Source: Diospyros lotus (lineage: Eukaryota; Streptophyta; Magnoliopsida; Ericales; Ebenaceae). Taken from it: 64,000 bases of DNA. Below are positions 25,080 through 64,000 of this stretch, in pieces. Under the pieces are notes generated by a model. It did not search any database. It was not told the origin of the DNA and saw nothing but the letters and a program-made list of their open reading frames with translations. Within the stretch, counting starts at the first letter, position 1. Each line of letters opens with the position of its first letter. Made by a program: the position numbers and the translations under genes. The stretch is taken from assembly GCF_014633365.1 (NCBI RefSeq), contig NC_068344.1, forward strand, positions 35,648,670-35,712,669, in the 5' to 3' direction.

Positions 25080-25640
25080 GATAATAGTTTCTTCCTAACC
25101 GTTAATCTAACATTATCATATCTCTGCAAAATCTATCCAATATATGAGACAAAAATCTAACAAAATCTCATCTCAATTGTTGGATAAAAAGTGTTTTAAT
25201 CTCAATTGTTAAATGGTATTCATTTCTCTACTATACTTTATCCAAGGTATGACACAAAAAACTACCAAAATCTTATCTCAACTGTTGGATGAAAAATATT
25301 TTAATTTCAACCATTAAATGATATTCATATCTCTATCACACTCTGTTCAGGGTATGACACAAATCTACTAAAATCTTATCTCAACCATTGGATGTAAAGT
25401 GCTTTAATCTCAACCATTAAATGATAGTTTTATCTCTTCCACACTCTATCCAAGGTATGACACAAAAATTTACAAAAATCCCATCTCAACCATAAGATGA
25501 AAAGTGCTTTAATCTTAACCGTTAAATTGTATTTTTATCTTTTCTACACTCTAGACACAAAAATCTACTAAAATTTCATCTCAACCGTTGAATGAAAAAT
25601 GCTTTAATACTAATCGTTAAATGGTATTCTTATCTTTTCT
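25080..25640 (+). repeat. ~105-bp tandem array inside the Harbinger element
   Basis: Five or so diverged copies; landmark GGTATGACACAAA recurs at about 25246, 25351 and 25454, and a degenerate version at 25553. Each copy also has AAAATCTCATCTCAA, TTGGATGAAAA, CTTTAATCTCAACC and TTAAATGGTATTC. It separates the two relict genes. Confidence 0.8.
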
Positions 25641-25929
25641 AAAATTGATCTATAAATAATGACTCATCCTTTATCAAAATGTCAAAAAACATCTTTCTCT
25701 TTCAATTCCTACCACTAGATATATATTTCCAAAAAAATGTCTTCAAGTAATAATTTAAGTGATAAGTCTAAAAACACTTTATAAAGTGCTTCATAATCAA
25801 ATGAGAAAGACGAACTCTTATGCTATATATGTATATTTTGATGTTTCTCAAACTCTAATTATAAGTACAAACCAATCTGGTCTTCAATTTTGATCTCACA
25901 TAAAGGCTGAATATCATAAGACGTTCAGG

Positions 25930-27339: not shown

Positions 27340-27734
27340 TATATTATTCATGCAACCCCAAAATTTGTGCTTGAGATTCGTGTCATACACCAATTTGGTG
27401 TGTTCATTGTAGATGCTCGTGTAACACACCAAAAAACATCAATTTGGTGTCAAAACAAGCTCCAATGAATACACCATCTTGGTGTATGGCACGAACTTCT
27501 AGCACTAAATTTAGAGTTGTGTGAACAGTATAACACCAGATTTTGGGAGTGGCATGAATCTCATGTACCAAATTTGGTATTGCATGAACACTATAACATC
27601 AAATTTGAGGTTTGGTGTTATATTGTTCACGTAGCACCAAATTTAGTGTTTGAGATTCGTGCTATACACCAAGATGGTGTATTCATGTTATATACACCAA
27701 TTTGGTGTCTTCATCGGAAATGCTCTTAAGGACC
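27340..27734. repeat. Subterminal palindrome cluster of the Harbinger element
   Basis: At least eight copies of short inverted motifs such as ACACCAATTTGGTGT, TACCAAATTTGGTA and ACACCAAGATGGTGT in under 400 bp, leading to the right terminus. Subterminal repeats of this kind are usual transposase-binding arrays. Confidence 0.7.
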
Positions 27735-28913: not shown

Positions 28914-29211
28914 GAGCCCAGATCTGTTGTCCCAATTTGGTATCCCTTTTCCTGATCAGCCAATCAAAAATAGCCACATCACCTATCACCAAATAGTCAT
29001 TTTTGTAAAAATATTATAAAAGCAAACAAAAAAATTATAAAATCAAACAATAATATATATATATATAACCAACATATATATCATTTATAATTTTTTTGTT
29101 TGCTTTTATAATATTTTTACAAAAATGACTATTTGATGATGGGTGATGTGGCTGTTTTTTATTGACTGGACAGGGAAAGGGACACTAAATTGGGACAACA
29201 GGTCTGGGCTC
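28914..29211. mobile_element. 298-bp foldback MITE
   Basis: Near-complete inverted repeat: begins GAGCCCAGATCTGTTGTCCC and ends GGGACAACAGGTCTGGGCTC, with pairing that continues inward through TATTATAAAAGCAAACAAAA to an AT-rich loop. Flanked by ATTCTAAC at 28906-28913 and 29213-29220; with one more base each side it is a 9-bp duplication with one mismatch, suggesting a Mutator- or hAT-type origin. Confidence 0.85.
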
Positions 29212-34561: not shown

Positions 34562-37500
34562 TCAGCTTCTGTTAGGCCTACTTCGATCCACTTGAATTGT
34601 TCCTGGGTCCAGTGTTGACAAGATCTGTGGCATTGACATGCCCCCAGAAACTACAATTTCTGCAGAAACAAAGGATGGCATTGAGATATATTTGCATGCA
34701 AAGGTAAAGATGTGTATAAGAATGATCCTTCCTCGACCATCTTGAAGCATAGAGTCTCATGGACCGGGATATTCATATTACAACTAGCGGGGACAATGAT
34801 TCTTTAGGAAACAGCATCGACTTGTATGTGTGTTTATACTACATGCTGGGTAGGGTTCGGGCTCTCCCTTCTTTTTGTCCTCATATTTCCTCACAAACGA
34901 TGGTTATAGAAAAACAAGTAGAGATCCTTACCAATTCCTTCCCGAACGGATAAATTTGGTCTAATTACGTCTTGGGAGTTGATCAAGAATATGTCACCAA
35001 TATAAAGATGGTTGGTGGGAACACACACGCAGCATAGCTCCTCCTCACCTGAATAATTCTGTAAATCAAATTATGGAAGTTAGAGATTCGAAAGTAGGGA
35101 AATTCCATAATCAGACACAATAAACATTAAGCAATTTCTTGGCTGCTTAATTTTCAATTTGCAATTGCTTGGAATCAACAGTAAGCTTCAGGTTGGAAAG
35201 CAGAAAACGTAAGAAACAGTGCATCAACAATGACAGCAAACATATTGCGTGATGATAAAACTGGACAACACATCCATACAAACACTCAGGAAAAAAATGG
35301 AACAAATGGAGATTTGAAATTAGTAATGACAATACAGGTGTGTTTGATTGCATTACCTAGAATTTAATTCTAGGTAACAATTGCCTAGAAAACAAAAGCC
35401 ACCCCACCCAAATGAATTCTATGGAAAGAAGATTTAAATGCTTGTACCATACACATATTTTTCATAGAAAAGTTAGGGTGTTTGACTGTTTCTATAGAAA
35501 ATATGTGTAATAATTACAAATAATTAGACATTTTCTATGGCAAATGTGTGCTATCAAACACGCCATACCAGATTGGAAAAGTTAGTTGCAAACCTGAAGG
35601 ACTACAGATGAAGTGATGAACCCAAATGCATATTCACCAATACGTGGATGCCTTATGATAGCCACCTCTTTGAATGCCTGTGTGTTTTGATCTGCAAAAA
35701 GAATTAACAACAAAATTAAAACTTTAACCATCCCAAAATATGGAAAGAATAATGAGCAAAAGAATTAATGGAAATCAATACCTGGAGATATGGCAGCACT
35801 AATTTGCTTTGAGGCACTGTAAATATGTCGGACAAATGGCATTCGTTTGATGAACCACTCCCCAAGACTCAAAACTGATGCCCCCAACCATGATGACATG
35901 AACACTCCAACCAAGAAGATGAATGTGATTGACGTTATAAAACCAAGACCTAACCAAGAATATCAGAAAATACAAAGTCGATTAGACATGGATAAGAATT
36001 GTTCACCAAGAAACCTATCGTGTTAACCAATAAAACCACACAAATTATAACCCCACGTGAACTTAAAGAAGAGTTTCAATACCAGTTGTTTGGATATGAC
36101 TTAACTGCAAAAATTCAAATATAGGCAATAAGGAAACTTCTATTTCAGAAATGCATAATTCTAGCAGTTTGAAACAATTTGAGCTTCTGGTATACCTACT
36201 GTTTCTAAGAAACATGCAGTTTTATAGTATTAAACAGAAGAAACATTCTACTTCAGGGATGTGAAACTCTAGCTCCTTCTAAATCATAATAACAAAAATC
36301 ATTACAGAATCACTTCTATTATAATGAATATTGCTCAAGCTTCAGCGTAACTAGTGGCTGCAATTTTCAGAACCCATTCTGCAAAGCATGACTAACATAC
36401 TATGTGGCTGGATCCATACCCAATCAAGCACACCTCCCAAGCACCCGGGATTAACATGGAGCAAATCGGCTAATTACCAATTTTGCTTGAACTTTAAGAA
36501 ATTTGTTAGGGATTATATTGTGTTGGCAATTTTGTACCCATATCTAAGTTGTAATTCATTAACTCTGAGTTCAGATACACCTTGGTACACACTTCCAAGA
36601 ATATGGCACCTTTAAACATGCCTTTGCTTCTTAGGCACCTTTAAAAATGTGTTTGCCTCTTAGCACACTGCCGGTGATAAAAGATAGAAGAGCAGAATTG
36701 GGGTTATCTCCCCAACCTTAAGTACATGTGCTGTTAGGACCAACTTCCATCGAATTCATAATTTCATAGTGATTATTTTTAAGGAAATTTGTAAAATCAA
36801 TGTGAATATGGACATTTAAGAAAGTTCATAGTGGTATTAAGGTTTGTGATTGTTGCAGTGTTATTATCCTTCATAAAAAGTCCAGGACCAATTCATAACT
36901 CAATTCTGGGAAATGAACCGAGGGTCTCACAAAGCAAGCTAATGAAGTCACTTTTTACAGAAAGACTTGCCCCAACAACACCACTTCAAAGATGATAATT
37001 AGATTTTACAACTTGTACCAGCAAAGATACAAGTGAAAAGGGGATCCATTAAGGGTAGGATGGGATATGCTTACCAAATATATCAATGCCCAGCTGAGCA
37101 TAAATTGGAGAGAAAAACCCGTCCACTAAATGAATAAACCACCATGTTATATAAAAAGTGACTGCTATCGGAAATAGGATGACACTGCAAAAAAGCTAAG
37201 AGTAAGCAATAATATAACAGTAAGAAGCATCCAAAACTCTCCAGAAGTATGAATGGTCAATGTAAAATTTGAAAGATAAGAAAGTAGTTTGTATAGTTTC
37301 ATAAAAATGCAGTGGTGTTCAATGTAAGTTAAGCTTCTATGCATTGTATCAAAGTTTTCCTAGCTCCATACATAACTCTTCACTTAAGTTTGTTGAGTGC
37401 ATATCCAACTGGACAGAATCAGACACATCCTATATGTAACGCCCCGCTTTTCCGAGCGTTAAATAACTTAGAAATTTTAGGAATATTTTTTTCTTTTTAT

Positions 37501-40500
37501 AAACCATTCCCGACAATCCCGTTTTACCTTCCCGACAATCATCATAAATGCGGAAGCTAAAATTGAAACCTGATATGGTACAGAATCTGAATCCACTTTA
37601 ATCATGAAATAAGAATTCGTACCATTACATCTTTAAATACTTAATTACATGGAGACTCATCATCAAGAGATAATAACTAAGTACTTCAATTGATACAATC
37701 TAAAGATACCTCAAAAATACATTAAACTATAACAATTATACATGATCATCAATACAATAATATATCATGACTCCTCATGAAGAAATAAATACAGGGACAA
37801 CTCGCCAAACTCATCAGCCACGTCATCACGTGCCGTTACGTCTCAATCATCTCCCTGCCATATCTGCAACTCCTAACTGGAACGTGGAATGTTCTAGGGG
37901 CATCACCCATTAAAAGATGAAACTTCTAGTGAGGGTTTAAAAACATGATACGTGAATGCAATATGCAAATACATGAACAAACATTTGCCCTAGTGTAACT
38001 TCTCAGGCCCAGCCCGGCACGGAATCCTAGGCAAATCCCGAATCTCTGCAAGACAAGCCTAACGTTATTCCATCATTGCCCTAAGGGAATTACGGCTACA
38101 CTCTAGGGCGACATCCCGTTCCCATGCACAAATAACAATGTGACAATAATATCGTGCCATGCAATTATCACGACTTTCCATGTAACATGGCAAAATAAAT
38201 CATATCTTTCGTAAATATTATGCATATATAAGCAATCATATCTTTCATAAATATCATGCATAATAAACAATCATATCATGTAGGATAGGAAAAACTCACA
38301 AAACCATGTTTTGGATAAAATTACTCACCTTTAGCACAAGTTCGAACTTCCTCGAAAAATGTGCATCGCCTCGATTTTCGTGCCAACTCTCAAAAGTTAT
38401 ACCAATCACATCATCTCGATTACCTCAACATAAAAATGACATTTACTACTAAATATCCTCAATATTCCATTTATTTCCTATTTTCCTTCATTTTCTTTCA
38501 TTTTTCCTTCTGAAAATCCCAATAAATACATCAAGACTATTTTCTCAAATCTATCTTCACAACAATTCATAATAGATTTTAAAATTCAAGGAAAAAATAC
38601 TGGACTTACCCGGATGGCGCGTTTTCACGCAAAACGAGGCACTTTGATGCTAGAATCGAGACCTATAGAACTCCAAATTCAAATCTTTTTTTACAGGACC
38701 TAGATCTCTATTTTAGAGAAACTTAGAAAAAAATTTCAGAATTTTTGGAGCCCGGACGGGCCCGCACTCGCCCAAACAAGGTGCTCCACGCGCCCCCACT
38801 CGCGGGGCCCAGCTGGCGCGTGTGCCCCACGCGCCAGTCTTCTTCAACATCCAGCTCGTTGGACTGGTGCGCTGCCTTCGGTTTAATGGCCATATCTCCT
38901 TCATCCGACCTCCGATTGACCCCCCGTTTGAACCTATGGCTTCTTTTTTTCATCCTCTACAAGATGATACCAAAAAATCCCACAAACAGAACCATTTTCA
39001 GACTGCTCGAAGCTATTTTCCGACGAAGCTCCATATCTCCTTCATCTCTCAACGAAAATTGTTCAAAATTCACAGGAATGATCCTCTGGACATGGGGAAC
39101 AAAAGCCCCTTATCCGTTGCTTTCAATTTTTGCCCAAACTCTCGGATCTAAGAGTTTTATTTTTCACTCCATTCGGCTAATTCAAAAACCTCTATTTATA
39201 GGCAACCCCGACCCTCCAAATGCTCATGGTTGGTCGATCCAACCGAGGCTTCTACCTGCCCCAGATTAGTCCAAAAACGCCACCAAACACGGATTCAACA
39301 TATTGAAATTTCATCCACAAAACGGCCGAAAATCATGCAAAATTGGTCATCATCTTGGCCAATGTCGGCCTAAGCTCGACCCAAGAGCATCCTAGGCCAC
39401 TTTCCTTGAGTCTCTCACCACCGAATTCGGTGATGGGAGGTGGTAGAGAAAGTTTGGTCGGCCATGACAGATTTGCTCCATCTTCAACTATTGAAAATTA
39501 CACTTTGACCCCTATCTTTTCTCATTTGAACTTTCGGTCCTTTTCTTGAAGCCCCTAACCTTCCCAATACTGCCATTGCGACCTATAAGTTCTATACTTT
39601 TCATTGCATCCCGAAGATTCCGAAAAAATATCATTTCGACCTCCTTCCGGCAAAATTAAGAAATAACACTTAGGCCCGAATCTTCGTTTTGGCCCTAAAC
39701 CTCTTCGTTTCTTCTTGAAACCACTGAAGGGTTGTTCCTTATAAAAAACCGAAGCCTCTTCAAGCTTCCGTTGACTTCTCGGAAGTCGTCTATAACAATT
39801 CGGTATTGCAGCCTAATTGGCAGTTGCCATTTTGCTGTACCGAAAACTGTTCCCGATCCGATTTCTTTTGGCACCATGAATCCTATCTCGGGGTGCTTGT
39901 TAATGTCACATCATTTTTCTTTGGCATCTTGACTGCAGGACACTCCCTCCAGTCGATTCGGTCATTCATACGGTAATAAATTACCATTATACCCTTCATT
40001 TATCCTAAAATTTCATTTTTGCTCCTAAGATAATTTACCCTTGAGTCTTTTAGAATTTCTCGGGTATTACATTCACCCCTCCTTAAAGAAATTTCGGCCT
40101 CGAAATTTTCATCTGACCATTCAGATAACTAAGACAATACACAGCTTATTACCCGAATACTTCAAATCAAACGTCCATTGGTCCTTGACAAATACTTCAG
40201 TTTGCATTTCTTACACGTCCGATGCTTACAAGCATGCCGTGTCATTTACATAATTTCCTGTTGTGTCTCTTTACAGACGACCACTTATCTTCCCACATCC
40301 TAGGCACACACATCTTACCCTGAAACTTTTAAGAATGCCATCTTGCATATCAAAAATCATAATCCTTGGGCTGACCACAATCATCGATTATAGACAAAAA
40401 CACCTACCAATCACACATGCTTTCTGTATCTCAATCACTAGATCCAACTAAATCGTTAGGCTAGCGATAGAGACAAACGATCCATTTGGCACTATGATCA

Positions 40501-43500
40501 TAGTCAGCAGGCCAACAAGCCTCTAACATCTAACACTCATAGCTATCCACCCATGTCATGCGTCGGCACCTCACGGCCATGCCCCGGGTGATATGAAATA
40601 GTGCAGTCGTAGTCTTCAAGGAACTCTATCTACCATCGCTACCACTCATTTAGCTCTTTCTGCGAGAACCCGTACCTCAGGCTCCTCGTGGTTTGTGGCA
40701 CATCAACTGTCCCATCATTTTGGTAATGTCTCCATAACCTTAAGAGTACATGTCCTAGCTGTCAGCTCTAAGTCATACATTGGGTAGTTCTCTTAGTGTC
40801 TTGGTGTAATCCACACGTAATCATTAGGTCATGTTGCATTAACACACAACCCGATCCTTTGAGTTATCATAAACTCTTACTGCACCCGGCAGGGTATTCT
40901 TATTAAACTCTTCTCATGAGTCTTATTGTGGACATAATTATTTCAGGGTGTCCTACCAGTATCTTCTGACAACAGCTTTGTCAAAACATCTTAACATTTT
41001 ATTTCGAAATCTGGTTCGTAAAAATTTCATTTCAAACCTCACGTTGCTCCATGTTTCGAAATATAGGGTCGGAACTATAAATACCCAAAAAGCCCTGAAC
41101 TCAACTTTCGCGTATCCGGATAATTTTTTTTTTTTTTTTTGCCAAAATCTCCGAAATAATAAAACACGTTTTTCCCATAAAGAAGATAAGATTATTTTTC
41201 CTTTCCCATTTTTTTTTTCTTTTCTTTTCTTTTTTTCTTTTCTTCTTTTTCTTTTCTTTCTTCTTCCTTCTCCTTCTTCTTCTTCTTCTTCTTCTTTCCT
41301 CTGCAAATCCGGTGTGCGAACAGCCACCACCTGCGCACAGCCCGGTCGCCCTCGGCCTCCGCCGCGTTCGCCTCCGATCGACTCAATCAGCCCCGCGATC
41401 GCCACCGCCGACGCCTCCGCAGCCTCAGCCGTGACCTCCTGCGCGTACAGCGCCCTCGCTGCAACCGGCTGCCTTCCGTTGCCGATCGCCCTCCATTGAC
41501 TGGATCCAGCCGCCGCCGCCGTTGCCAGCCCCTTTGCGCAGCCACCGGCCCTCGCTCGGCACCCCTCGACCGTCACCGCGCCCGCCGTCATCCTTGTCGT
41601 TGCTGTCAGATCCGGGTCAATCTGACCCGACCCGACCCGACTCGGCCCGTTTCAGGTTCGACCCATTAGATCTGACTCATATCTATTTTGACCCATTCAT
41701 TTAGATCCGACTCACATCTGATTTATTTAGATTTTGCCAGATCCAAATCTATCATGTCAAGGCGCAACATACCAAGACCCCGTCGTCGGTGTGGTGCCTG
41801 CATAGTCTTGCATGCCCAATGCCCTCCACGATGCTTCTTTGCCCCGTACTTCAGTCACGAGGAAAGAGTTATTGACTTTTCTGCCATCAATAGAGTTTTT
41901 GATGTCAGTAATGCTTCTCTCCTTCTGTACCGACTTCCGGCAAGAGACCGGTCTGAGGCAGCCGTTTCACTTACCATTGAGGCTTTAGCTCGGCTCCAAG
42001 ATCCTATCTATGGTTGTGTCTCTCACATTCTTGCCCTACAGCAGCAGGTTAGTGAGTTGCAAACTTATCGAGCTTACTTGCAAGATTTACTATTTGCATA
42101 TTATTCTTCACATCCCCAGCCTACTCCTCAACCTGATCAAAACCCGAGCTAGAATTTCGATCTTCCTATCGTTCCAGAGGATGTCCCTCATCCCAGTTTC
42201 TCAGAGGCTGCTCTTCCGCCTTACCCTTGTGAAGCTAGCAATAGCCAGATGCCACCCCCAGATGACATCGATGAGCTGGGAGCTATTGTGTTTGGCAACC
42301 GTCGTCCTCACTGAGCATTGGCATCATCATTAGTTTTTTTGCCTTTTTCCTTTTAAGTAATTGTACGGCTTGATTTCCTGTAACCGTTTGAACATATGGA
42401 ATGAATATTTTGCTTTGAATACTTTAACGTCTCATTCCCTTATTCTCGGTTGCATGTTGATCACAAAACATCTCAGCCTCTTGCAACTGTTTTAATAATT
42501 CATCAAATCGAGATAAAAACATCGGTTCCTAATTATCACCTGATAATTCACATCCTTAATTAAGTCACACATAGCTAAGCATCCAATAACATCAAGCTAT
42601 CATAGTTTCATGATCCCGTTAAATATATCTTGGTCATTTTTCATTTCTCTTACCACTTCCACTAATCGCAAGTGCTTATACCTCCTATCCATAGGCTCAT
42701 TTATTTCCATAACTTACTGACATCACTCAGCAATACATCACCTAATTTGCCCATCAAGGCTACCTAGAGTAATCATCTAGCCATACGAGAGTTTCAATCG
42801 AAAATCTCGGATCCTCAATTAATTTGGTCCTGCAACTTCTTCGATTGCGACCCGTCATCTTTGCACATCTGCCATCATCTTGATTCTCTTAATCACGTCA
42901 AAGATTCGCACAAATTTCAAGACCTTAATTCACAGCTATACTTCCAACTAGAGCAGATAGGTACTTGTGTTACCCACGGTACTCCAATCCTCACTGGATT
43001 TCTTTCTAAATCTCTAAAGTTCCATCACGACTCCCTAGATCCTCAATCAATTCTTTCAAAGGATTTCCTCAAAAATCTCGAATCGATTTATCTTCGAAGA
43101 TCCCAAATTAGATCACAATATTTGGTTTCAATTATCTTACAAGAACTCGATTTCCTTTGCCATCACGAGTTTCTATCCATCGTTCATTACGGTGCTTTTA
43201 AGCTCTCTTCGTCGGGTCTGACTATCGACAATTTTACCTGATTCTACAAGTTCATTTGGCACACTGAAACGTAGTCACAACCTTTGTCGTCTAGACTTCC
43301 TTATCATTCCTTTACGGTCGACACGACCGTCAAACACCTCTTTTATTTTTAGTGCCCGAACTCTACTTTGAGTCAAGACTATCATTTCAGAACTCATCGG
43401 TCAAGCCTTTGGACCAGTCATGCTCCACTACCTGAAATCTCATATCGAGAATCCATTGACTCTCACATTTCGTTCTTCAAATCCAGTTGACTATCGGCAC

Positions 43501-46500
43501 TCGACCATTAAATTAGTTCTTTGCAGGCACTACACTTATTGTTAGCCAGCACACAAGCTGTCATAATCACTCCGATCACATAGTAGACTTACTCCTACAT
43601 CATACGTCAAGCCTCACATGGGTACGTTATGGGTGAAAACTACACGATCTCGTCGTAGTCCTTCAAGAACTATCATCCATTGTCGCTGCAACTGAGTCTA
43701 AATCATTCTGTAAGAATATTCATTCTAGGCCCTCGAGCCTCCCATTGCTTGTCGTGTCATCATTCCCAAAGGTGACCATGAACCTCGATGTAATCCCTTA
43801 AATAGGACACTCGGTCCATATTCAACTCATCTTACCTTAGGTTAATTTCCTAGGCTTCCGGCCTCGGTCAACAATAACTAGTGGTATACCTCGCATCTTA
43901 GACCTTTGGAAGTTGGAATTCTCCACAAGGTACAAACCCTACCGTGTTACTCCAGATTTGATCGTCTCCTCGGCAGTTCACTAAGCAACTTAGACCCTGG
44001 ATCCCAAACCCATACCACGAGACAGTTTACAAGTTTCCCCGGTACGTTGATCATAAGCTCTTTACAAGCCTTCTGCCTTGGTCCCTAGATCAAGATCTGT
44101 CACTATGAACACCCAACCAGCTGTGTCGCCACGCTGCTAGGGTTTCTTTATCTCGTCTTTGCGAGTCACATCGGTTGCACTACTTTCAGCTTATCAATTG
44201 ACGCGCTCACACGCCATCATTTGGCCATATTTGGCCTCTTGTTCAATCCAATCCGATGGATCCCTTATCTTTACATCATATTTTCGAGATGCTAAATGAT
44301 CCTCGAAAATCCTTATCTTGACAACTTAGGCCATCAGACTAATCTTGCGCTAGCTTTTATCAGGCATTCTACTATTCATCGGGAATAGTAGTCGTCTACT
44401 GAAATAATGTCTGCTCGTGAATAGTATACCAGGTAAGTTCCCAGGAAAGAGAGGTGGCTCACAAACGGACACATTTAAGTACCAAGTCTTTCCTTAGTCA
44501 GAACTTTCCTAGACATGCACTTCCACTACACATCACTTATCCAGTAACCGTCAATACCCAAATCTTACCGTGGCTTTGCTTATCTAGCCACGTGCGACCT
44601 TTTCCTTAGGTTCGCTCTAATATCGACCATACTAGAGTCACTCAAGGCTCAGACATTTCCTATGTCTTTAACAATTATTCTCTGATACCAACTGTAACGC
44701 CCCGCTTTTCCGAGCGTTAAATAACTTAGGAATTTCAGGAATATTTCTTTTTTTTATAAACCATTCCCGACAATCCCGTTTTACCTTCCCGACATACTAA
44801 ACAAGAACCGATAAGCCAAGACACGTAATCATCATAAATGCGGAAGCTAAAATCGAAACCTGATATGGCACAAAATCGTAATCCACTTTAATCATGAAAT
44901 AAGAATTCGTACCATTACATCTTTAAATACTTAATTACATGGAGACTCATCATCAAGAGATAATAACTAAGTACCTCAATTGATACAATCTAAAGATACC
45001 TAAAAATATATTAAACCATAACAATTATACATGATCATCAATACAATAATATATCATGACTCCTCATGAAGAAATAAATACAGGGACAACTCGTCAAACT
45101 CATCAGCCACGTCATCACGTGCCGTTACGTCTCAATCATCTCCCTGCCATATCTGCAACTCCTAACTGGAACGTGGAATGTTCCAGGGGCATCACCCATT
45201 AAAAGATAAAACTTCTAGTGAGGGTTTAAAAACATGATACGTGAATGCAATATGCAAATACATGAACAAACATTTGCCCTAGTGTAACTTCCCAGGCCCA
45301 GCCCGGCACGAAATCCTAGGCAAATCCCGAATCTCTGCAGGACAAGCCTAACGTTATTCCATCATTGCCCTAAGGGAATTACGGCTACACTCTAGGGCGA
45401 CATCCCATTCCCATACACAAATAACAATGTGACAATAATATCGTGCCATGCAATTATCACGACTTTCCATGTAATATGGCAAAATAAATCATATCTTTCA
45501 TAAATATTATGCATATATAAGCAATCATATCTTTCATAAATATCATGCATAATAAACAATCATATCATGTAGGATAGGAAAAACTCACAAAACCATGTTT
45601 TGGATAAAATTACTCACCTTTAGCACAAGTTCGAACTTCCTCGAAAAATGTGCATCGCCTCGATTTTCGTGCCAACTCTCAAAAGTTATACCAATCACAT
45701 CATCTCGATTACCTCAACATAAAAATGACATTTATTACTAAATATCCTCAATATTCCATTTATTTCTTATTTTCCTTCATTTTCTTTCATTTTTCCTTCT
45801 GAAAATCCCAATAAATACATCGAGACTATTTTCTCAAATCTATCTTCACAACAATTCATAATAGACTTTAAAATTCAAGGGAAAAATACTGGACTTACCC
45901 GGATGGTGCGTTTTCATGCAAAACGAGGCACTTTGATGCTAGAATCGAGACCTATAGAACTCCAAATTCAAATCTTTTTTTACAGGACCTAGATCTCGAT
46001 TTCAGAGGAATTTAGAAATTTTTTTCAAAATTTTTGGAGCCCAGACGTGCCCGCACTCGCCCAAACAAGGTGCTCTACGCACCCCCACTCACGAGGACCA
46101 ACTAGCGCATATGCCCCACGCACCGGTCTTCTTCAACATCCAGCTCGCCGGACTGGTGCGCTACCTTCGGTTTAATGGCCATATCTGCTTCATCCGACCT
46201 CTGATTGACCCCCCGTTTGAACCTATGACTTCCTCTTTTCATCCTCTACAAGATGATACCAAAAAATCCCACAAACAGAACAATTTTCAGACTACTCAAA
46301 GCTATTTTCCGGCGAAGCTCGTTTTTCCGACGAAACTCCATATCTCCTTCATCTCTCAACGAAAATTGCTCAAAATTCACAGGAATGATCCTCTGGACAT
46401 GGGGAACAAAAGCCCCTTATCCGTTGCTCTCAATTTTTGCCCAAACTCTCGGATCTGAGAGTTTAATTTTTCACTCCATTCGGCTAATTCAAAAACCTCT

Positions 46501-49499
46501 ATTTATAGGCAACCCCGACCCTCCAAATGCTCATGGTTGGTCGATCCAACCGAGGCTTCTACCTGCCCCAGATTAGTCCAAAAACGCCACCAAACACGGA
46601 TTCAACGTATTGAAATTTCATCCACAAAACGGCCGAAAATCATGCAAAATTGGTCATCATCTTGGCCAATGTCAGCCTAAGCTCGACCCAAGAGCATCCT
46701 AGGCCACTTTCCTCGAGTCTCTCACCACCGAATTCGGTGATGGGAGGTGGTAGAGAAAGCTTGGTCGGCCATGGCAGATTTGCTCCATCTTCAACTATTG
46801 AAAATTGCACTTTGACCCCTATCTTTTCTCATTTGAACTTTCGGTCCTTTCCTTGAAGCCCCTAACCTTCCCAATACTGCCATTGCGACCTATAAGTTCT
46901 ATACTTTTCATTGCATCCCCGAAAATTCCGAAAAAATATCATTTCGACCTCCCTCCGACAAAATTAAGAAATAACACTTAGGCCCGAATCTTCGTTTTGG
47001 CCTTAAATCTCTTCGTTTCTTCTTGAAACCACTGAAGGGTTGTTCCTTATGAAAAACCGAATCCTCTTCAAGCTTCCGTTGACTTCTCAGAAGTCGTCTA
47101 TAACAATTCGGTATTGCAGCCTAATTAGCAGTTGTCATTTTGCTGTACCAAAAACTGTTCCCGATCCGATTTCTTTTGGCACCATAAATCCTATCTCGGG
47201 GTGCTTGTTAATGTCATATCATTTTTCTTTGGCATCTCGATTGCAAGACACTCTCTCCAGTCGATTCGGTCATTCATACGGTAATAAATTACCATTATAC
47301 CCTTCATTTATCCTAAAATTTCATTTTTGCTCCTAAAATAATTTACCCTTGAGTCTTTTAGAATTTATCGGGTATTACACTATATTATATTACAAGTGTC
47401 AAACATATGGTACAGTTTTCCCAAATATTTAGAAGAGACCATGTACGGTAGCAAGAGATTGAAGTGCAATCTAATTGAACATTCTAGGAATTAGATCTCT
47501 CCTCATAAATAACTTCCTACATCTTTGCACCATGTTAGCAAAGCAGGTCAAGATTGAAGAATATCATGACAGAAATCAAAAGTTGGGCATGACAGATGAG
47601 TAAGATGATAGTCATGCTACATATCATAAAATCGCATGCATAAGAAGATAACAGGACATATTTAGGATTGAAGGGAAATAAAAGAGAGCGGGGAACAAAT
47701 GAACACACCATCCTGTCATAAACTTTTTTGAGGCCCAGCTCCTGACAACTTTGAAGAACGTCTGCACAGAGACATGTCATCCAGGATTTATCAGACAAAT
47801 AAGAAACATATAGACAGATAAACACTTAAAAAGGAAAACTTCTATATTGAGGTTTCTTTGGGAATTCCATGCAAGATGATTTTAGCTTAAACAGATGTAA
47901 ACTCAAAATGTGTGGTGCCTAGTGCAATAATTAACAGAAGGAGCCTAGTGCAATAATTAACAGAAGGAATAATGTCAGCATGTCCTCAAGAATATGGTAG
48001 TGTGTGTGGATGGTTTGTCATGCTTGCCTTGCTCTACTCACATGTCATGTCTAACTGGAATCAATAAAGTGGCCACATAGTTGTTCAGCACTTGAAATTT
48101 AAAACTGTATATTTACTCATGCTAAGAGTTCCTTCAAGTTATTGTAACCCACGTTTCCCCTCGTGTTGGGCTTTGCCAAGGTTGCTGTTGCAGCCCAGAG
48201 GGTGCCTTGTCTTAACAAGTAACGGTCCATGGAAACTGGAAAGTAACAAGCAGTTTATTCAAAAAGTTTCATTTTCCTTTTGTTTTCATTTTGAAAAGAT
48301 TCCAAAAGTTTCAAATTGAGACAAGGTTCCCTCATGTCAGCCAACTTTACAAAATTATACACACCAAAAAACCAAATTTCTAGAAAAAGCTTCCAGTTGA
48401 GCAAGCATATATCTTGCAAAAAGTTCTGGATCCAAACAAACTACACGTGCATTGGGAAAATCAACAGAAAATAATGACAACATGATTTGAAATTACCATA
48501 GATTGGAAAGATCAATGCCCTCACCATCTGTGGTGCATCAACCAAGACCTAAAAACTGACAGACTAGGAAGCATATTTGTTGGGAATTGGTTTATCCTAT
48601 CAAATTTAAGGATGGAAATCTCTGGGACTCAAGCTCTATGTTTGTAACTTGCAATGGATACCACTGCTTACAGTCAACAGATAGTGGGTAACTGATTATT
48701 CATCAATCCTTTAATGGATCAAAGTACACATTAACTACCAGCATACATAAAGTAAACTAAATTATCACGAAGCATTCCAGAAAGTGACCAAATAAACCGA
48801 TACACAAAGGATTCATCTACATTTGGAATAAATGATGGAAATGAATAAACACGAGGGAAAATGGCTGTTACTCCTAAAGCCATATGAACAATTTTCGCTC
48901 CTTCCACATCAATCACCCCAAGAACCAACCGGACTTTAAGAGGCGGATCGCAAAAAACCCGAATAAGAACAATGGTTTCCCCAATTAAAACTGAATTCAA
49001 TCACCAAAAACTAGCTCACTGAAAATGAGAGAGAGAAAGAGAGAACAAAAAATCAAACGAGTAAACGGTGCGGAGTTCAAATCAACTACAGTAGTTAAAA
49101 TTGCTTCTAAACCCTAAATCACGTCCAAAATTAGAAAGTAGTCAACAGACAATCAAACGAGTAAACGGTGCAGGGTTCAAATCAACTACAGTAGTTAAAA
49201 TTGCTTCTAAACCCTAAATCACGTCCAAAATTATAAAGTAGTCAACAGTTACACCACCAATATATGTACATATATATATTATATGTATAGAGAGAGAGAG
49301 GGGGGAGAGAGAGAGAGAGAGAGGAGAAGGCAGGGACCTCGCGGCCGGAGATATGAGAAGAGGAAGAAGCGGCGGCAGCAGCGGCGGAGGAGGAGGGCTT
49401 GGGGGAAGGCGGTCCGGCAGCGACATCATCGTGAGCGACGGGTAAGAGGAGCTCTCGATCTCTACTTTCTCTGTTCGCCATCATCGTCTTCTCATCCAT
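34562..49499 (-). CDS. LIKE-COV (COV1-like, DUF502) membrane protein
   Basis: Integral membrane protein of the COV/LIKE-COV family; COV1 restrains vascular differentiation and family members act at the Golgi. Minus-strand exons: 49499-49338, 47761-47709, 37184-37075, 35949-35782, 35691-35594, 35058-34932, 34659-34562; 816 nt, 271 aa, all junctions consistent. The N-terminus is Ser/Ala-rich and variable (MDEKTMMANRESRDRELLLP). Then FFKVVRSWASKKFMTG, the first membrane helix VILFPIAVTFYITWWFIHLV, the second GLGFITSITFIFLVGVFMSS, and the conserved cytosolic part SASKQISAAISPDQNTQAFK, HPRIGEYAFGF, EEELCCVCVPTNHLYIGDIF, IRPNLSVREGIEIVVSGGMS. Length is normal. The gene is stretched to 15 kb by a 9.9-kb retrotransposon in intron 2; splice sites on both sides look intact, so it may still be expressed. 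ATG at 49499 is the first in frame; a short uORF (49512-49492) overlaps it. Confidence 0.92.
35337..35564. mobile_element. Small MITE in LIKE-COV intron 5
   Basis: Ends GGTGTGTTTGATTGCA and, inverted, GGCGTGTTTGATAGCA; internal inverted motifs CCTAGAATTTAATTCTAGG and TTCTATAGAAA. Flanks share ATAC. About 228 bp, superfamily not determined. Confidence 0.6.
37435..40071 (-). repeat. 3' LTR of the retrotransposon (2637 bp)
   Basis: Starts on the plus strand with TGTAACGCCCCGCTTTTCCG and ends TCGGGTATTACA. Contains a GC-rich block (38750-38830) and a long Pro/Phe-rich open stretch shared with the other LTR, which I do not regard as a gene. Confidence 0.93.
40072..40090 (-). other. Polypurine tract
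   Basis: Minus strand TTTAAGGAGGGGTGAA abuts the LTR start TGTAATACCCG, the normal plus-strand primer site. Confidence 0.85.
40575..40680 (-). pseudogene. Ty3/gypsy RNase H relic 1
   Basis: Minus strand reads YGFSQKELNEW, then, past stops, LEDYDCTISYHPG; family consensus is FTQKELN...RRWLELLKDYDCTIxYHPGK. Too short and broken to function. Confidence 0.75.
41100..41753 (+). other. Low-complexity leader ahead of the LBD frame
   Basis: T-run (about 41127-41143), long pyrimidine tract (41200-41300), GC-rich Ala/Pro-type sequence (41310-41590), then GACCCGACCCGA-like repeats (about 41620-41690). It could be the captured gene's leader or promoter. The long frames on both strands here (including a Lys/Glu-rich one on the minus strand) follow from base composition. 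Confidence 0.45.
41754..42152 (+). CDS. LOB-domain (LBD/AS2-like) protein frame captured in a retrotransposon
   Basis: 132-aa frame encoding a plant-specific LOB-domain DNA-binding protein. The zinc-finger-like block CX2CX6CX3C is intact (C13, C16, C23, C27: CGACIVLHAQCPPRC), followed by FAPYF, a GAS-type block (FSAINRVFDVSNASLLLY, residues 42-59), RLQDPIYGCVSHILALQQQV with the invariant DPxYGC, and heptad-spaced leucines L95, L102, L109. No intron interrupts the domain. A TAG stops the frame at 42150, but the same frame continues open to a TGA at 42312-42314 (186 aa in all) with ending ELGAIVFGNRRPH. It lies antisense to the host LTR element and inside LIKE-COV intron 2 (also antisense to that gene). 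Whether it is expressed is unknown. The class within the LBD family is not resolved; it looks class I. Confidence 0.85.
   Translation: MSRRNIPRPRRRCGACIVLHAQCPPRCFFAPYFSHEERVIDFSAINRVFDVSNASLLLYRLPARDRSEAAVSLTIEALARLQDPIYGCVSHILALQQQVSELQTYRAYLQDLLFAYYSSHPQPTPQPDQNPS
43630..43735 (-). pseudogene. Ty3/gypsy RNase H relic 2
   Basis: Minus strand, with stops and a frame slip: FLQND, then RLSCSDNG and FLKDYDEIV, FSP; corresponds to the same FTQKDLN...FLKDYDxEIVYHP region as relic 1. Plus-strand neighbourhoods of both relics also align (GTAGTCYTTCAAG...). Confidence 0.6.
44400..44530 (-). repeat. Leader segment shared with the Copia chain
   Basis: Plus strand CTCGTGAATAGTATACCAGG through CCTAGACATGCACTTCCAC; aligns gap-free with 28790-28905 at roughly 70% identity by eye. 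Located about 150-290 bp from the primer-binding site. Confidence 0.75.
44680..44690 (-). other. Primer-binding site (initiator-Met tRNA)
   Basis: Minus strand: LTR end TTACA, two bases, then TGGTATCAGAG, an exact match to the plant iMet site. Confidence 0.9.
44693..47379 (-). repeat. 5' LTR of the retrotransposon (2687 bp)
   Basis: Same termini as the left LTR; carries an extra ~35 bp near 44802-44836 and ~26 bp near 46316-46341 relative to it. Confidence 0.93.
47915..47968 (-). repeat. 27-bp tandem duplication in LIKE-COV intron 1
   Basis: GCCTAGTGCAATAATTAACA followed by GAAGGA occurs twice in a row. Confidence 0.85.
49051..49250 (-). repeat. 100-bp tandem duplication in LIKE-COV intron 1
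   Basis: Two copies with exact 100-bp period (landmarks AATCAAACGAGTAAACGGTG and CTTCTAAACCCTAAATCACG), only a few differences. Each copy contains a telo-box-like AAACCCTAAA. Confidence 0.92.
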
Positions 49500-53169: not shown

Positions 53170-56100
53170 CTAAAGCAGAAAATCTGTAAGCAAATTCTCT
53201 ATCAGTACATTGAAAACTAGCTTCTCTATGTCACCTACAACTTGCTCGACTTCTTGCACTGTAAATTCATGCCTCCAGCCCCAGTCCCATCCCCCGCTCA
53301 CCGCCCCCTCCGACTTCAGGTCTTTCTCCAGAACTGCATTAACATTGTCAGAGGGAAGTTTCTCGGCATCATTCTTACTGTAGCTTCTCAAATTCTCAAT
53401 TCCATTGTACACTTCATCCACCAGGTGGGAAAGCGATATGGAGATGTTGAAATTCCTCGCCAGAGCTGTTAAGGATGGACGTTTGGTTTCTGTACATTGA
53501 CGCCTTTTACGTTGCAGAAGTTCGTTTGCACAGTCCAACAAGAGTCTGGTATCGTCTACACAATCATATTGACTACTTGTCTGTAAAAGTATGGCCTGGT
53601 TAGTATCGACATTAAAGAGCTCCTGTGCAGTACTAAGGAATGATGGACTGCTCAAAAACAGATCTTTTTCGTTGGCTTCAGTTCTGAACCATTTCTCCTT
53701 GGTACTATTGTGACTGCTGCAGTAATTAGTTTCTTCAGCCAATTTGACATCGCTTTTGGGTTGCTCAGTCTCTGGTGTCACATTGCACATAGCATTCTGG
53801 CTGCAATCAAATTGGTCTGCAAATGAAAAGGGAAAAAAAAAAAAAAAAGATCCATGCAGTCAACCCCATTGCAAATGCAAGTAGCTACGCACCATAAAAT
53901 CCACTATGAAAACATTAAGATGACAGTTATACATCAATAAGCCGCTCTACTGTGTACATGTAGTTCTCTGTATGATTCTATGTATTCTTCCACAAGACTG
54001 ATAATATAATTTCTCTTTATGGTTGTGAAAATGGTAGATAGAATAATGGTTACAGATTTCACGCAACAGGTAATGAGTTGAATCTTCTTTTGATGCTGAA
54101 CAAGTATGACAGGCATAGTTGGTGTCTAAGTATCTTTTAGAAGAAGTGAAGAACTGTGAACCATAATGGCATAACGGTTCTCTTGCCAGGGGACACTAAG
54201 CTGAAGCTATTCTTAGATTAATAAGCACGCTTTCTAAATGCTATCACAGAATGCAGTGTGTTGAATATATGGACAGTAGCTCCCTCATTCCCAGTTGTAG
54301 CATCACTTAATGATGTTCACTTATTGAAACCCGTGTAACTTGGTATTGAAGAGTGTGTCATACCTTTAATCTGAAGATCAGAAGGATCTGTCCCTTCTTC
54401 AGTAAAGAGTTGATCTTGATCTTCAGTTGTGATAGTACTTGTCATATCACATTCCTCTTCACAGCTATGGTTAAACCCTTCATTACCATGCTTGCCTCCA
54501 ACATCTTCAACCTGCGTTGGCAATTTAGCGCATAACTTGTCAGTCATTGGTGATGATTCTAGGCGCTAACTCTAGTTTATACTTCGCATTAGGGAAATAC
54601 TCATAGATAGCAGTATCTATAAAAAGCCAGGGAACAAATAGAAGTGTCTAAAATAAAGATCTCTTAAGATTATAAAGATGGAATTTAGGAGCACTCACAA
54701 CTAAAGTTACGGCCAAAGGCTCCTTGACTTGTTTCTCAACCTTCACACTCTTTTTCACACCACCATAGTCATGAGATATGGCTGTTGTTTTGTGTTTTGA
54801 AATGACACTTGCTGATATAGTTTTTCTTTGGGTTATACGATTCTTTGTGATGTTCAACCCAATCTCAGGTTTTCTTTCTTTTGTGGAGGCCACTTTGGCT
54901 TGATCGTGAGATTTAGGAGCAACTTTAGATTTCACATGCTCCACTTCTGATGGTTTCTTTCTGTGAGCGGTCTCTTTTTGTGTCCTATCTACTTTCTTCT
55001 CAACTGCTTTCTTTCTCTGTTGCTGATTTGCAGGTACACAATCTTTCAACTTACTAGAAGACAGCTTCTCATTTCTCTTGACTAATTCTGCTTTTTCTTC
55101 TCCTTTAAGGTTTTTATACCTTTTATGGGTAACCCTTTTGATTGGCGTACCTGTCTCTTCTCCTTCGAGTCTTCCAGACATCTCACTGGAATTCAATGCT
55201 CCTTCCCTCTGGTCTGTGGTCCTGGGTTGAGGTTCTTTTATTTTGAATTTTCTGACTTGAAGAGCGCCCGCATCATGCATAAACTTTTGCAGGTGATTGT
55301 CTTCAACTTCACCACGTGAAACACGCAGAGGTTTTATAAGTACGATAGGTGGGGAATCTTCAGTGAACTGCTTTCTTGATTTGGAGGCATTAGAATGACG
55401 AAAAGCTTCAGGAGAACTGCATTTTAGAAGCCCCTTAAAGTGCATAGTTTCAACTATTTCTTTCAGCTTCCTCTGTTCTGTATACACCTTATAAGAGGCA
55501 GAATGAGGCTTCCTTGCCTTGGGCATATCAACTTCAAACATGGGTCTTTTTTGACTTGAAATTTTCTCGCTTTCTAACTGTTTACAGGGGCCAGTCTGCG
55601 CTTCTTGCAAGGGAAATTCTTCAAGACCCATAAGCTTGGCAATCAAATTTGAGCCTTTTGACTTGTGTGGAGCCTTTGATGATAGAGAACTGTCAGATGA
55701 GAAAAGGCTGTGGAAGTTAACCATCGAGGACTGGCTTGAGCTAGTGGAGGCAATGTCTGAAGCTGAGTCCAGGGTTCGTCTATCAGAACAAGCATTCTTT
55801 TCAGTGAAATTAGGCGGTAGAAGATTTTGCTTTGCAAGGCCGTCTCTGATTGCTGTCCTAAGCTCCTCAAAGCAATCCCTTGAAGAACCATCAGCAGAGA
55901 GTCTTGACTTCTGAAATTCCACTTGGTAATTTTGATCTACCAAGGAACGGGAGTTTGTTCTCTGGAACCCTAACCCATCAATTCTTTCTTGGTTGAATTT
56001 CTCCTTCTGTTTTTTCTTCAACTTGGTCATATATTGAGAAGCTTTTTGTAGCTTCCCAAGCATGATCAAAGAGTCTTGCAAGTCAAGAGCTCCTTTCAAC

Positions 56101-56441
56101 AAATCTTTCGCTAGTTCTTCAGAATGCCCATCACTCCCCTTTGACCATGAATCTATCATCCGGTTCAGCTTGTGAGCCCCTTTTGATACCTCCATAAGCT
56201 GAAAGGAAGATGGGATATGCAAGCCTTCAGAGATGCTCTTAGAGGCCTTCTCCTTTCTTTCTTCCTTGTATTCAGAAGATGACTCAGAATTCTTAGGCAT
56301 TTTTTGGCTTTCGACTTTATTCTCCAATCTCTTAGGTTTGCTCTTGGATTTTCTGATTGTCCCACATTCAACCACACCTTTCGGATCGTCGCATGTAACA
56401 AAGGATCTGTACACAGCTGATCTGAGACTGTCTTGAGGCAT
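53170..56441 (-). CDS. TRM-like protein with DUF4378
   Basis: Large, basic, mostly disordered protein of the TON1-recruiting-motif / LONGIFOLIA-like superfamily, whose members bind microtubules and shape cells. Minus-strand exons: 56441-54699, 54511-54364, 53816-53170; 2538 nt, 845 aa. The hallmark SNLIAKLMGLEEFP lies near residue 265. The N-terminal part has helical segments (LDLQDSLIMLGKLQKASQYM), the middle is Lys/Arg/Ser rich. The C-terminus is a DUF4378 domain: RLLLDCANELLQRKR, SLSHLVDEVYNGIENL, then GWDWGWRHEFTVQEVEQVVG and DIEKLVFNVLIENLLTDFLL. Start at 56441 is in frame and first; an overlapping out-of-frame uORF begins at 56463. Which TRM member it matches is not resolved. Confidence 0.88.
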
Positions 56442-56772
56442 ATTCTTCGAAAGAAAAATCCATTGAAAAAGTCAGATGCTACTACTGTTGCAGAAGCCAA
56501 TTCCAAATCCCACACTAAATTTGCATAAAATACTTACATGATTGCATATATTCTAATGAAAAAATTCACACATTGACTGTTAACAGACAAATACAACTCT
56601 TGTTCGGCTGTGCCTCTGAAAGCATAACTAAAAGAAAGAATCAGTTGCCGCCAATAAACAAATCCCTGTGAATGTTGAGATACAAAAAAGATCATTCTCC
56701 TGTTGAAAATTCAAACAATCTAAATCTATTTTCTACTAATCTCTGTAAAATTTTCAAGAACTCGACAAAATT

Positions 56773-61249: not shown

Positions 61250-62481
61250 AGACGAGAGAGAGAGAGGGGGTTGTCGTTAGGGCTTGAGGGAGTCTTTCTC
61301 ATTTCATGAATCAGGCTCTCTTCAGCTCCTTCTGGTTTTCTCTCTGGTTCGAATAGGGTATGCCTCTGATCTATTTCTTGTTATGATTTTGAGGTGTTTT
61401 TGATAGAGAAATTGTCTCTGTAAATACGAATGATTGTGAGGCTTGTATTCAGTGTGCTTGTAAATCCTATTTTTAACTTCGATAGTGCAGTGAGCTCTCT
61501 GTTACCGGAGCTCAACGTGGACATAGCCCTTTCGGGTGAACCACGATAAATCTCTCATGTTATTTCTGCTTTCCATTTTATTCATACTTGTTTATGGTGT
61601 ATGTTGATTTCCGATTTTGACTCTGTTGTATGTTAGAAAGGGTTTTTATGTCAAAGATTCAGATTGTGTGTATGTCTGGGTTGCTTTCTGTTTGCGCAAC
61701 ACAAATTATTAATATCCTTTATTAGCTTATATTATCTTATTTACCCAACCTATTTCCTTAAGTTGTATTGGGTTTATTGGTCCGGGTTTTATATGAATTT
61801 AATTTAATTTATTTAATTATTATTGAATTTAAATTTATAATTTTATATTTATATATGATCAGTGATAGTCAAAAAATAATAATAATAATAATAAATTATT
61901 GAAAAAAAAATTGACAAAAGGGTTTATGTATACAATACTAGTCGTTCAAAGTAATTTTTGTAATTGTAAATGCTGGAAAAAGGGTAATTTTGTTTAAAAA
62001 TAACATTTTTTGGGGTCATGTTTGATTTTGGCTCTAGGTATCAAAGCAAGAAGGAAGAGGAGACAAGACAACAAAGGCAAAGGGAAAGTTGGTTAATTGG
62101 GGAAGAGAGTTAGTTATTTATAGAGAATAATAGAGAGTTGTGATTGCATGCATTTCCCTGACTTTTTGGCAAAGCATTCAAAAACCCAACCATTCATTCC
62201 TGTCTCAAAACAACATCCATTTCCACCCCACATTCCATCCATTTCTTCTCAATCCTCTCAATTTTGGAACCAAAATTTTCCTTCATTTTCCAGTTTTTTT
62301 CACTGTTAGGGACATTTGATTCAGATTTTCTTGTTGCAGAGGCTGCCTATCCTGCCCCTGTTCGGCCGTTTGTTCTTTGATGTCAAAAGGTAGTTATCAA
62401 CTACCTTGAGGATTGGCAGGCTTATGATAGTTTCAGAAGATCGTTGCAGTCAGAATTGGACAAGTTTTTTGGTTTACAAGG
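61250..62481 (+). promoter_or_regulatory. 5' leader of the RopGEF gene, probably spliced, with uORFs
   Basis: A GA run and GGGCTTGAGGG sequence (61255-61290) suggest the leader start; a donor AGGGTATGCC near 61357 and acceptor TTGTTGCAG at 62331-62339 would define a ~980-bp leader intron. The second leader exon has uORF1 (62380-62409, 9 aa) and uORF2 (62424-62489, 21 aa), the latter overlapping the main ATG. The intron holds an LTR-like piece (61490-61550). Confidence 0.55.
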
Positions 62482-64000
62482 ATGTTTGAGAGTCCAGGAA
62501 GACAGGCACAGAGTGTGGTAACCGATGGCCTGAACTCTGGAGAAGCCATCGACGAGAAGCAAGATTGCTATCAAGGTGAGAGGAATGCAGCAGTAGAAGC
62601 GGTAGGAACTGCACTGAATGGATCGAGTGATAAATCGCACATCAGCAAGGAGGGGGGCCGGGGAGGAAGCTCCGGCAACAAGGACAGGAATTCAGGTACA
62701 CACAAACCATATACAGGTTCTTACTATACACATTTTCTCGTTTCATGCAATCTTCTCATATACAGGAAAGTGGCGGAGGACACATTTTCTTGTCCTGACA
62801 TCTACATATGTATCTGTTGGCAATTTTTTGTTCTTGGCACAGATATGGAGCTAATGAAGGAAAGGTTTTCTAAGTTGCTCTTGGGAGAAGATAATTCAGG
62901 AGGTGGGAAGGGTGTTTCATCAGCTTTGGCTCTGTCAAATGCAATCACAAATCTAGCTGGTAAGCCCATTTCACAGCAATGCCAAATGGACCCTAAATCA
63001 TGTTAGGTCTCATGCATTCTTCCTTGCTTTTCTGATATGTTACAGCTTCTGTATTTGGAGAACAACGAAAGCTAGAGCCTATGGCTGCTGATAGGAAAGC
63101 AAGGTGGAAAAAGGAAATAGATTGGCTTTTATCTGTCACAGATTACATTGTTGAACTTGTTCCTTCTCAGCAGAAATCCAAGGATGGAACAAATATGGAG
63201 GTGATCTCTCTCTCTCTCTCTCTCAATTTTATCTAACATCATTGCAGTGTCATATTCCCTAATACTAGTTCCTGATTCAACAGATTATGACAACACAACA
63301 AAGAAAAGATCTGTTCATGAACATCCCAGCTTTACGTAAGCTTGACACTATGCTAATTGTAAGAACATTAACACCCGTTGCGTATATTTTCGTTTTGAGG
63401 GTATTTTGTTCTTCATGAGGTAAAATTTATATATTTCTGATCAAAAGATAATGAACAGGATTGCCTAGATAACTTCAAAGACCAGAATGAATTCTGGTAT
63501 GTCTCAAGGGATGCTGATGATGAGAAAGGCAGCCAGAGAGATGGCAAATGGTGGCTGCCTACAGTTAAAGTTCCCCCAAATGGGCTGTCAGATGCATCCA
63601 GAAAATGCCTGCAATTTCAGAAAGATTGTGTGAACCAAGTTCTGAAAGCATCAATGGCGATAAATGCCCAGATACTATCAGAAATGGAGATCCCTGAGAA
63701 CTACATCGAATCCCTCCCGAAGGTATGGGACAAAGCTATCCACTATTTAAGTTGAAGAGACTGCTAAGAAAGTTGTAGTTCATTTTCTCAATTTGTTCTA
63801 TACTTGGCAGAACGGTAGATCAAGCCTTGGTGATTCAATATATAGGAGCATTACAGTTGAATTTTTTGATCCTGAGGAATTCCTTTCGAACATGGATTTG
63901 TCTACAGAGCACAAAGTCCTTGACCTAAAGAACAGAATCGAGGCTTCTATTGTGATTTGGAAGAGGAAGATGCACCAAAAGGATGGAAAGTCTTCTTGGG
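62482..64000 (+). CDS. RopGEF (PRONE domain), 5' part, cut by window edge
   Basis: Guanine nucleotide exchange factor for plant Rho GTPases (ROPs), a plasma-membrane polarity switch. Exons: 62482-62695, 62843-62959, 63046-63200, 63284-63358, 63459-63722, 63811 to beyond 64000, with consistent phases. The N-terminal ~72 residues (MFESPGRQAQSVV...) are variable and probably regulatory. The PRONE domain starts at DMELMKERFSKLLLGEDNSG and continues through ALALSNAITNLAASVFGE, WKKEIDWLLSVTDYIVELVP, IPALRKLDTMLIDCLDNFKD, FWYVSRD, KWWLPTVKVPPNGLS and SIYRSITVEFFDPEEFLSNM. The rest of PRONE and the C-terminus are outside. uORFs in the leader suggest translational control. Confidence 0.93.

Follow-up and report, generated by a model that had tools for sequence, protein, structure and literature searches.

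The window analysed here, a 64-kb stretch of the Diospyros lotus genome, contains a whole LTR retrotransposon, inserted on the minus strand (37435-47379), with a LOB-domain (LBD) frame in its interior. The neighbouring coding sequences and the parts of the element are as follows.

9746-10255: Mpv17/PMP22-like host gene, flanking the element
15224-17178: PPR protein in two frames, flanking the element
37430-37434: target-site duplication CTATA, left flank
37435-40071, minus strand: 3' LTR, 2637 bp, 96.5% identical to the 5' LTR, TG..CA ends
39193-39201, minus strand: match to the motif CTATAAATA in the 3' LTR
40072-40110, minus strand: purine-rich tract AGGAGGGG, adjoining the 3' LTR and preceded by KFRGRNFFKEG*
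44680-44690, minus strand: PBS-like site TGGTATCAGAG, two bases inside of the 5' LTR
44693-47379, minus strand: 5' LTR, 2687 bp, TG..CA ends, with extra stretches of 33 and 18 bp
46500-46508, minus strand: match to CTATAAATA in the 5' LTR
47380-47384: target-site duplication CTATA, right flank
53173-56471: DUF4378 gene LOC127806500, with a minus-strand frame at 54648-56471 (100% identical over 96% of the frame)
62431-63003: PRONE (RopGEF) exon, flanking the element

Imperfect, MITE-like inverted repeats were also present at 28914-29211 (128-nt arms, 91%) and 27465-27686 (74-nt arms, 85% complementary), and at 25146-25650 a unit of about 100 bp occurred in five diverged tandem copies, 74-79% identical to the reference copy.

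The two LTRs were identical at 2543 of 2635 aligned sites and differed by 78 transitions and 14 transversions (K2P 0.036). The insertion age computed from this divergence is 1.4-4.5 My under assumed and uncalibrated rates of 4e-9 to 1.3e-8 per site per year. That the element is oriented along the minus strand follows from the PBS-like site, the purine tract and the copies of CTATAAATA in both LTRs, which all lie on that strand; we take TGGTATCAGAG to be of the initiator-tRNA-Met type. The interior (40072-44692) has a length of 4621 bp, and stops make up 6.0-7.6% of its three minus-strand frames. We compared all 21 minus-strand stop-to-stop pieces of at least 35 aa in this interior with Pfam, and none of them matched gag or pol. 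An earlier note on this DNA had described a non-autonomous element with broken pol relics. The complete element and the 4.6-kb interior agree with that description, but the Pfam result lends little support to the relics. Their one trace is KFRGRNFFKEG* before the purine tract, which presumably resembles the end of a Ty3/Gypsy polyprotein and may be a polyprotein terminus. LARD-type non-autonomous elements have long LTRs and an interior of several kb, and keep PBS and PPT without gag/pol. The D. lotus element is like them in these features, having paired LTRs, a target-site duplication, a PBS and a PPT but no gag/pol match, and differs by its recognisable host-derived interior frame. A complete autonomous partner of the element was not seen. 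Among viral contigs, seven pattern matches to possible DNA relatives were obtained and none was confirmed.

The LOB-domain frame and the sequence around it run in the opposite direction to the element.

41076-41083, plus strand: TATAAATA, candidate promoter box of the antisense unit
41084-41753, plus strand: leader, pyrimidine-rich and then GC- and CpG-rich, without ATG, from composition and shuffles
41754-42152, plus strand: LOB-domain frame of 132 codons and an in-frame stop, antisense to the element, with Pfam and PDB matches
42039-42053, plus strand: probable host LBD intron site, read straight through, by comparison with the proteins P0030 and P0032
42153-42314, plus strand: the same frame past the stop, resembling the C-terminal tails of intact relatives in D. 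lotus

The position of the frame, antisense within an LTR-element interior, had been proposed before and is confirmed by the paired LTRs, the CTATA duplication and the opposite strands of TGGTATCAGAG and CTATAAATA (minus) and of the frame (plus). The frame matched the LOB domain PF03195 over profile positions 1-96 of 99 (Pfam E 1.6e-25, 90 bits with a cut-off of 24.2), and its sole PDB relative by sequence was 5ly0, the LOB domain of Ramosa2 (E 8.9e-22). A chance ORF is rejected by these two values. An AlphaFold model of the frame (mean pLDDT 74.8, pTM 0.36) added little; a structure search with it returned only two 5ly0 chains at E <= 0.001, with TM 0.31-0.37.

The domain had been called intact, which proved to be partly true. 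In addition to the Pfam match, the zinc-finger motif CX2CX6CX3C is exact and DPIYGC is present. However, a TAG at 42150-42152 interrupts the frame 41754-42314 after 132 codons, and beyond it the frame is open as far as the TGA at 42312-42314. The GAS block reads FDVSN, compared to FGASN in the consensus of 30 hand-picked host LBDs; it is still recognisable and has lost the conserved glycine, which passages of a cassava survey call critical for function (PMC10118128). The LX6LX3LX6L zipper of class I LBDs is incomplete, with L95 and L102 kept and host L106 replaced by Arg, and the last zipper leucine (113) is missing from the 30-protein host consensus too. The relatives read through at the position of the in-frame stop and have the tail in common. 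The window copy is a damaged member of its family, and its stop and its changed GAS glycine lend no support to a working copy.

P0030 and P0032 match the family through ALQQQVS and then diverge, as if reading into an intron. The window frame is continuous from 42039 onward and remains alignable to host LBDs past this site. According to passages of a rice survey (PMC12694493), LBD genes of several subclasses, IB among them, regularly have two exons, and two exceptions are named. The fusion of the frame at a probable host intron site supports the capture of a spliced LBD mRNA, in line with what the earlier note had deduced from the missing intron. The antisense placement could have come about if the LBD mRNA was used as a template during plus-strand DNA synthesis. 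LINE-type retroposition into the element was considered and rejected, as no A-run of 8 or more follows the frame and no flanking repeat exceeds chance (the longest around the unit was 10, matched in 79 of 200 shuffles). An ordinary host locus nested in the element is disfavoured because the probable intron is missing, related frames are numerous and a single pair of target-site duplications brackets the whole element. The frame was 43-52% identical to eight host-type LBDs in the alignment, and reached 64% identity in the best local match among named species outside Diospyros; at such low identity long perfect RNA matches are unlikely.

Weak signals upstream of the frame hint that the antisense unit may have its own promoter. 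The candidate box TATAAATA occurs 21 times in the window, compared to 7.0 occurrences expected, and when 41052-41753 was shuffled with its dinucleotides kept, ATG was absent from 9 of 1000 sequences. The ATG-free leader loses weight as proof of a 5' UTR because a longer ATG-free run exists on the same strand: the longest on the plus strand of the window (42610-43420, 810 nt) lies downstream of the LOB frame in the same element. A 157-codon open frame at 42768-43241, without a Pfam match, overlaps that run.

Searching with the single sequence yielded 106 candidates, 94 of them accepted as proteins of this kind, and a profile built from 26 of these proteins gave 968 matches, the best 120 of which were considered. 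The element-like relatives in D. lotus amount to at least 37 non-redundant protein clusters on at least 15 chromosome-scale contigs, told apart by length. At the protein level the LBD frame thus extends beyond this copy, and the refuting case set in the earlier note, a frame in this copy only, does not hold. Judging from their protein similarity, these relatives are probably carried by the same LTR family. We placed the LOB region in a FastTree phylogeny of 71 of 75 sequences (70% coverage required), including the 30 hand-picked host LBDs, all from sources other than D. lotus. The element-like proteins formed one clade without any of the 30 host LBDs (support 0.992), which sits beside hosts of the LBD29/CRL1 type; the clade with P0226 as sister had a support of 0.959. 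P0226, from an 840-nt contig, combines a host-like zinc finger with an element-like tail and is possibly a relative of the parental gene. The class IB proteins of the LBD29/CRL1 type have in common with the family the LOB domain, the adjoining tree position and a similar end of the tail. In contrast to them, the D. lotus frame is intron-free and lies in an element, the basic residues of the zinc finger and the GAS block are altered, and the N-half has been diversified and recombined.

Some members deserve separate mention. The P0017 cluster consists of 14 member sequences, a size that suggests a recently amplified B-type subfamily. Two D. lotus models join LOB sequence to foreign stretches, which we take to be gag-like in P0085 and integrase-like in P0005; these are perhaps nested elements or annotation fusions. 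Several other D. lotus models are without inner stretches of the family. Prunus avium contributed five LBD29/LBD14-like proteins on separate contigs (P0238, P0241, P0245, P0254 and P0272) among the matches listed, possibly another lineage-specific expansion.

The N-halves of the element-like proteins fall into types A (which includes the window copy), B and C. Of 67 sites in the N-half, 35 differ between the consensuses of A and B1; of the 35 sites that follow, 2 do. Among 19 models compared, P0002 (A) and P0017 (B) had an identity of 40% in the N-part but of 97% in the C-part, and for P0001 and P0002 (both A) the values were 87% and 71%. In all six examined pairs of unlike types, the switch occurred near residues 65-75. 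Template switching between co-packaged RNAs would be a natural source of such mosaics. Across types, conservation is highest in the second LOB half and in the tail. The host CKFLRRKC has become CIVLHAQC in A, CVVLNRGC in B1 and CRVLRRQC in C, and the GAS block reads FGVSN in the A consensus and FTVKN in B1. Because CKFLRRKC is changed across types and the fourth zinc-finger cysteine is missing from two of four C-type sequences, the DNA contacts were probably changed or weakened. Moreover, the large loss of CKFLRRKC in type A and the absence of the GAS glycine in type B make an ordinary LBD function unlikely. From these substitutions, a dominant-negative or retargeted regulator appears likelier than an ordinary LBD.

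As a yardstick of selection we used the conservation of columns in the 30 host LBDs, a measure at the protein level. Private changes were counted in 35 sequences, out of 38 made up of the window copy and 37 models (P0005, P0085 and P0227 were left out), and were flat, at 94 of 1713 residues in the 52 host-conserved columns and 105 of 1580 in the 50 variable ones (rho 0.16, p=0.11). Between the consensuses of seven element-like groups, all 21 pairs, which are not independent, differed more at host-variable columns, 12 of them with p<0.05; A and B1 differ at 11 of 52 conserved and 26 of 50 variable columns (p=0.0018). A tree of the N-half was made from 35 of 44 element-like sequences, with P0005, P0024, P0085 and P0091 dropped as odd models and the others for coverage below 85%. 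On its terminal branches, 90 changes fell in conserved columns and 81 in variable ones, compared to 44 and 73 on the internal branches (p=0.016). Such counts are rough, as parsimony was applied to recombining sequences, and annotated proteins favour open frames. The other three branch settings gave p=0.010, 0.0125 and 0.09, so that three of four settings were significant in all, and the terminal-branch ratios in the longer region (12-113) were also below 1 (0.76 and 0.69). The 8-11 changes on the stem did not avoid conserved columns, and some internal branches may predate the capture. The picture from these protein comparisons would be one of constraint in the source lineages, with drift and decay after insertion.

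The findings suggest a captured host gene that was multiplied, kept for a time and then left to decay. Our explanation is that a spliced LBD mRNA was captured and kept as an antisense accessory gene of the element, with a putative function, and we give this explanation an even chance of being correct. The main rival holds that the LBD cDNA is a passive passenger, copied along with a successful non-autonomous element to which its protein is useless, and that the open frames are explained by a recent spread, by recombination that homogenised the copies and by a bias of annotation. Such a passenger would be consistent with the evenness of private changes across column classes, the in-frame stop of the window copy and the one branch test of four that was not significant, and annotated proteins are open frames by nature. 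It is less easily reconciled, however, with the avoidance of host-conserved columns in every one of the non-independent subtype comparisons, or with the persistence of the zinc-finger cysteines and the C-terminal tail across deep types. We regard the passenger as a possibility to be taken seriously, though an unlikely one.

It is rather improbable that the frame belongs to an independent mobile or duplicated intron-free LBD retrogene unit, one copy of which came to lie in the LTR element by chance. The relatives would then not be cargo of this element, and would have spread by a mobile unit of their own or by segmental copies. Neither the A-run nor the flanking repeat of such a unit was seen, and tandem or segmental duplication would account less well than retrotransposon copying for the recombined halves and for the spread over at least 15 contigs, although only a single copy is known in its DNA context and the relatives are known here as proteins alone. 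We consider it very improbable that the value of the insert lies not in a protein but in an antisense transcript, which would act as dsRNA or small RNA on the element or on a parental LBD. Constraint at the amino-acid level on internal branches is not expected of an RNA role, and with so low an identity to host LBDs there would be few perfectly complementary stretches to pair with a parental gene, even if the antisense placement agrees with it and passages of PMC7264820 discuss antisense transcripts and dsRNA in a possible regulatory role. The low identity also speaks against antisense regulation of the parental LBD, which the earlier note had raised. The duplication of a working host gene, another route raised there, found no support either.

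For capture and retention as an accessory gene, the course of events may have been as follows. An element of Ty3/Gypsy type would have taken up, in antisense, the spliced mRNA of a class IB LBD (LBD29/CRL1 type); this element is now without gag and pol and would be mobilised in trans in the manner of a LARD. We assume a single capture, and a loss of gag/pol after it rather than before. The captured unit, with its candidate TATA box, leader and LOB frame, would travel with the element and become its antisense accessory gene. In the source lineages the protein would have been kept under selection and reshaped: the second LOB half and the tail stayed similar, types A, B and C arose in the zinc-finger and GAS half, and the halves may have been recombined through template switching. 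The most likely function would be that of a nuclear regulator in trans, which dimerises and acts on element or host transcription, with the DNA contacts of the LOB protein changed or weakened. After insertion every copy would decay, and the one in the window already has. A more far-reaching proposal, which we make tentatively, is that a Diospyros retrotransposon lineage domesticated a developmental transcription factor of the host as an antisense-encoded trans-regulator and goes on evolving it, exchanging a conserved dimerisation half and tail between elements and renewing the DNA-contact half again and again.

Antisense ORFs (aORF-3R) of plant LTR retrotransposons include gene23 of Grande, RIRE2, ORF4/TRP28 of Retand and ORF2 of PvRetro13, in passages of PMC7264820 and PMC11963269. 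In the parts of PMC7264820 covered, they are described as conserved and of unknown function and origin, Grande gene23 is reported with its own promoter, and no clear protein similarity is given beyond an SMC domain in PvRetro13 and the TRP28 domain in Retand. Antisense TRP28 ORFs occur in 97% of Retand clusters and are probably DNA-binding, according to passages of PMC11963269. The D. lotus frame resembles this class in its antisense position in the interior, its many related frames per genome and its candidate nuclear or DNA-binding protein. Frames of the class lie between pol and the 3' LTR; in the D. lotus interior, with no pol match among the 21 pieces, this landmark is missing. It differs from Grande, RIRE2, Retand and PvRetro13 in having a recognisable host LBD relative, and those elements carry gag-pol, whereas the D. 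lotus element does not. Host genes have also been captured by LTR retrotransposons, as in Bs1 and the sorghum and rice cases (passages of PMC7264820 and of PMC13317346, a 2026 review of gene capture); according to the former source, they mostly have the same direction as the element and a copy number of one or a few. In orchids, Gypsy elements carry a 2-ODD RNA-demethylase ORF that was amplified through subfamilies, as stated in part of PMC9289625. These cases likewise have host-derived coding sequence inside an LTR element; in contrast to them, the D. lotus frame is antisense, encodes a transcription-factor domain and has numerous relatives.

We recognised no report of an LBD inside a retrotransposon in the open-access literature searched, and no word beginning with LOB occurs in the main text of the D. 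lotus genome paper (PMC11524226). If the domestication proposal is true, then by the open-access literature searched no antisense accessory gene of a retrotransposon would have been traced to a host ancestor before this one. Because the ancestor is legible and a structure of the family has been solved (5ly0), both its origin by spliced-mRNA capture and its function in dimerisation, DNA binding and control of the LTR are testable. Under the domestication proposal, the repeated renewal of the DNA-contact half would resemble an arms race with host silencing, or a retargeted control of the element. The case is also a caution for the annotation of D. lotus, in which dozens of gene models with the name 'LOB domain-containing protein 16/18/29/30-like' may be cargo of retrotransposons instead of regulators of the host.
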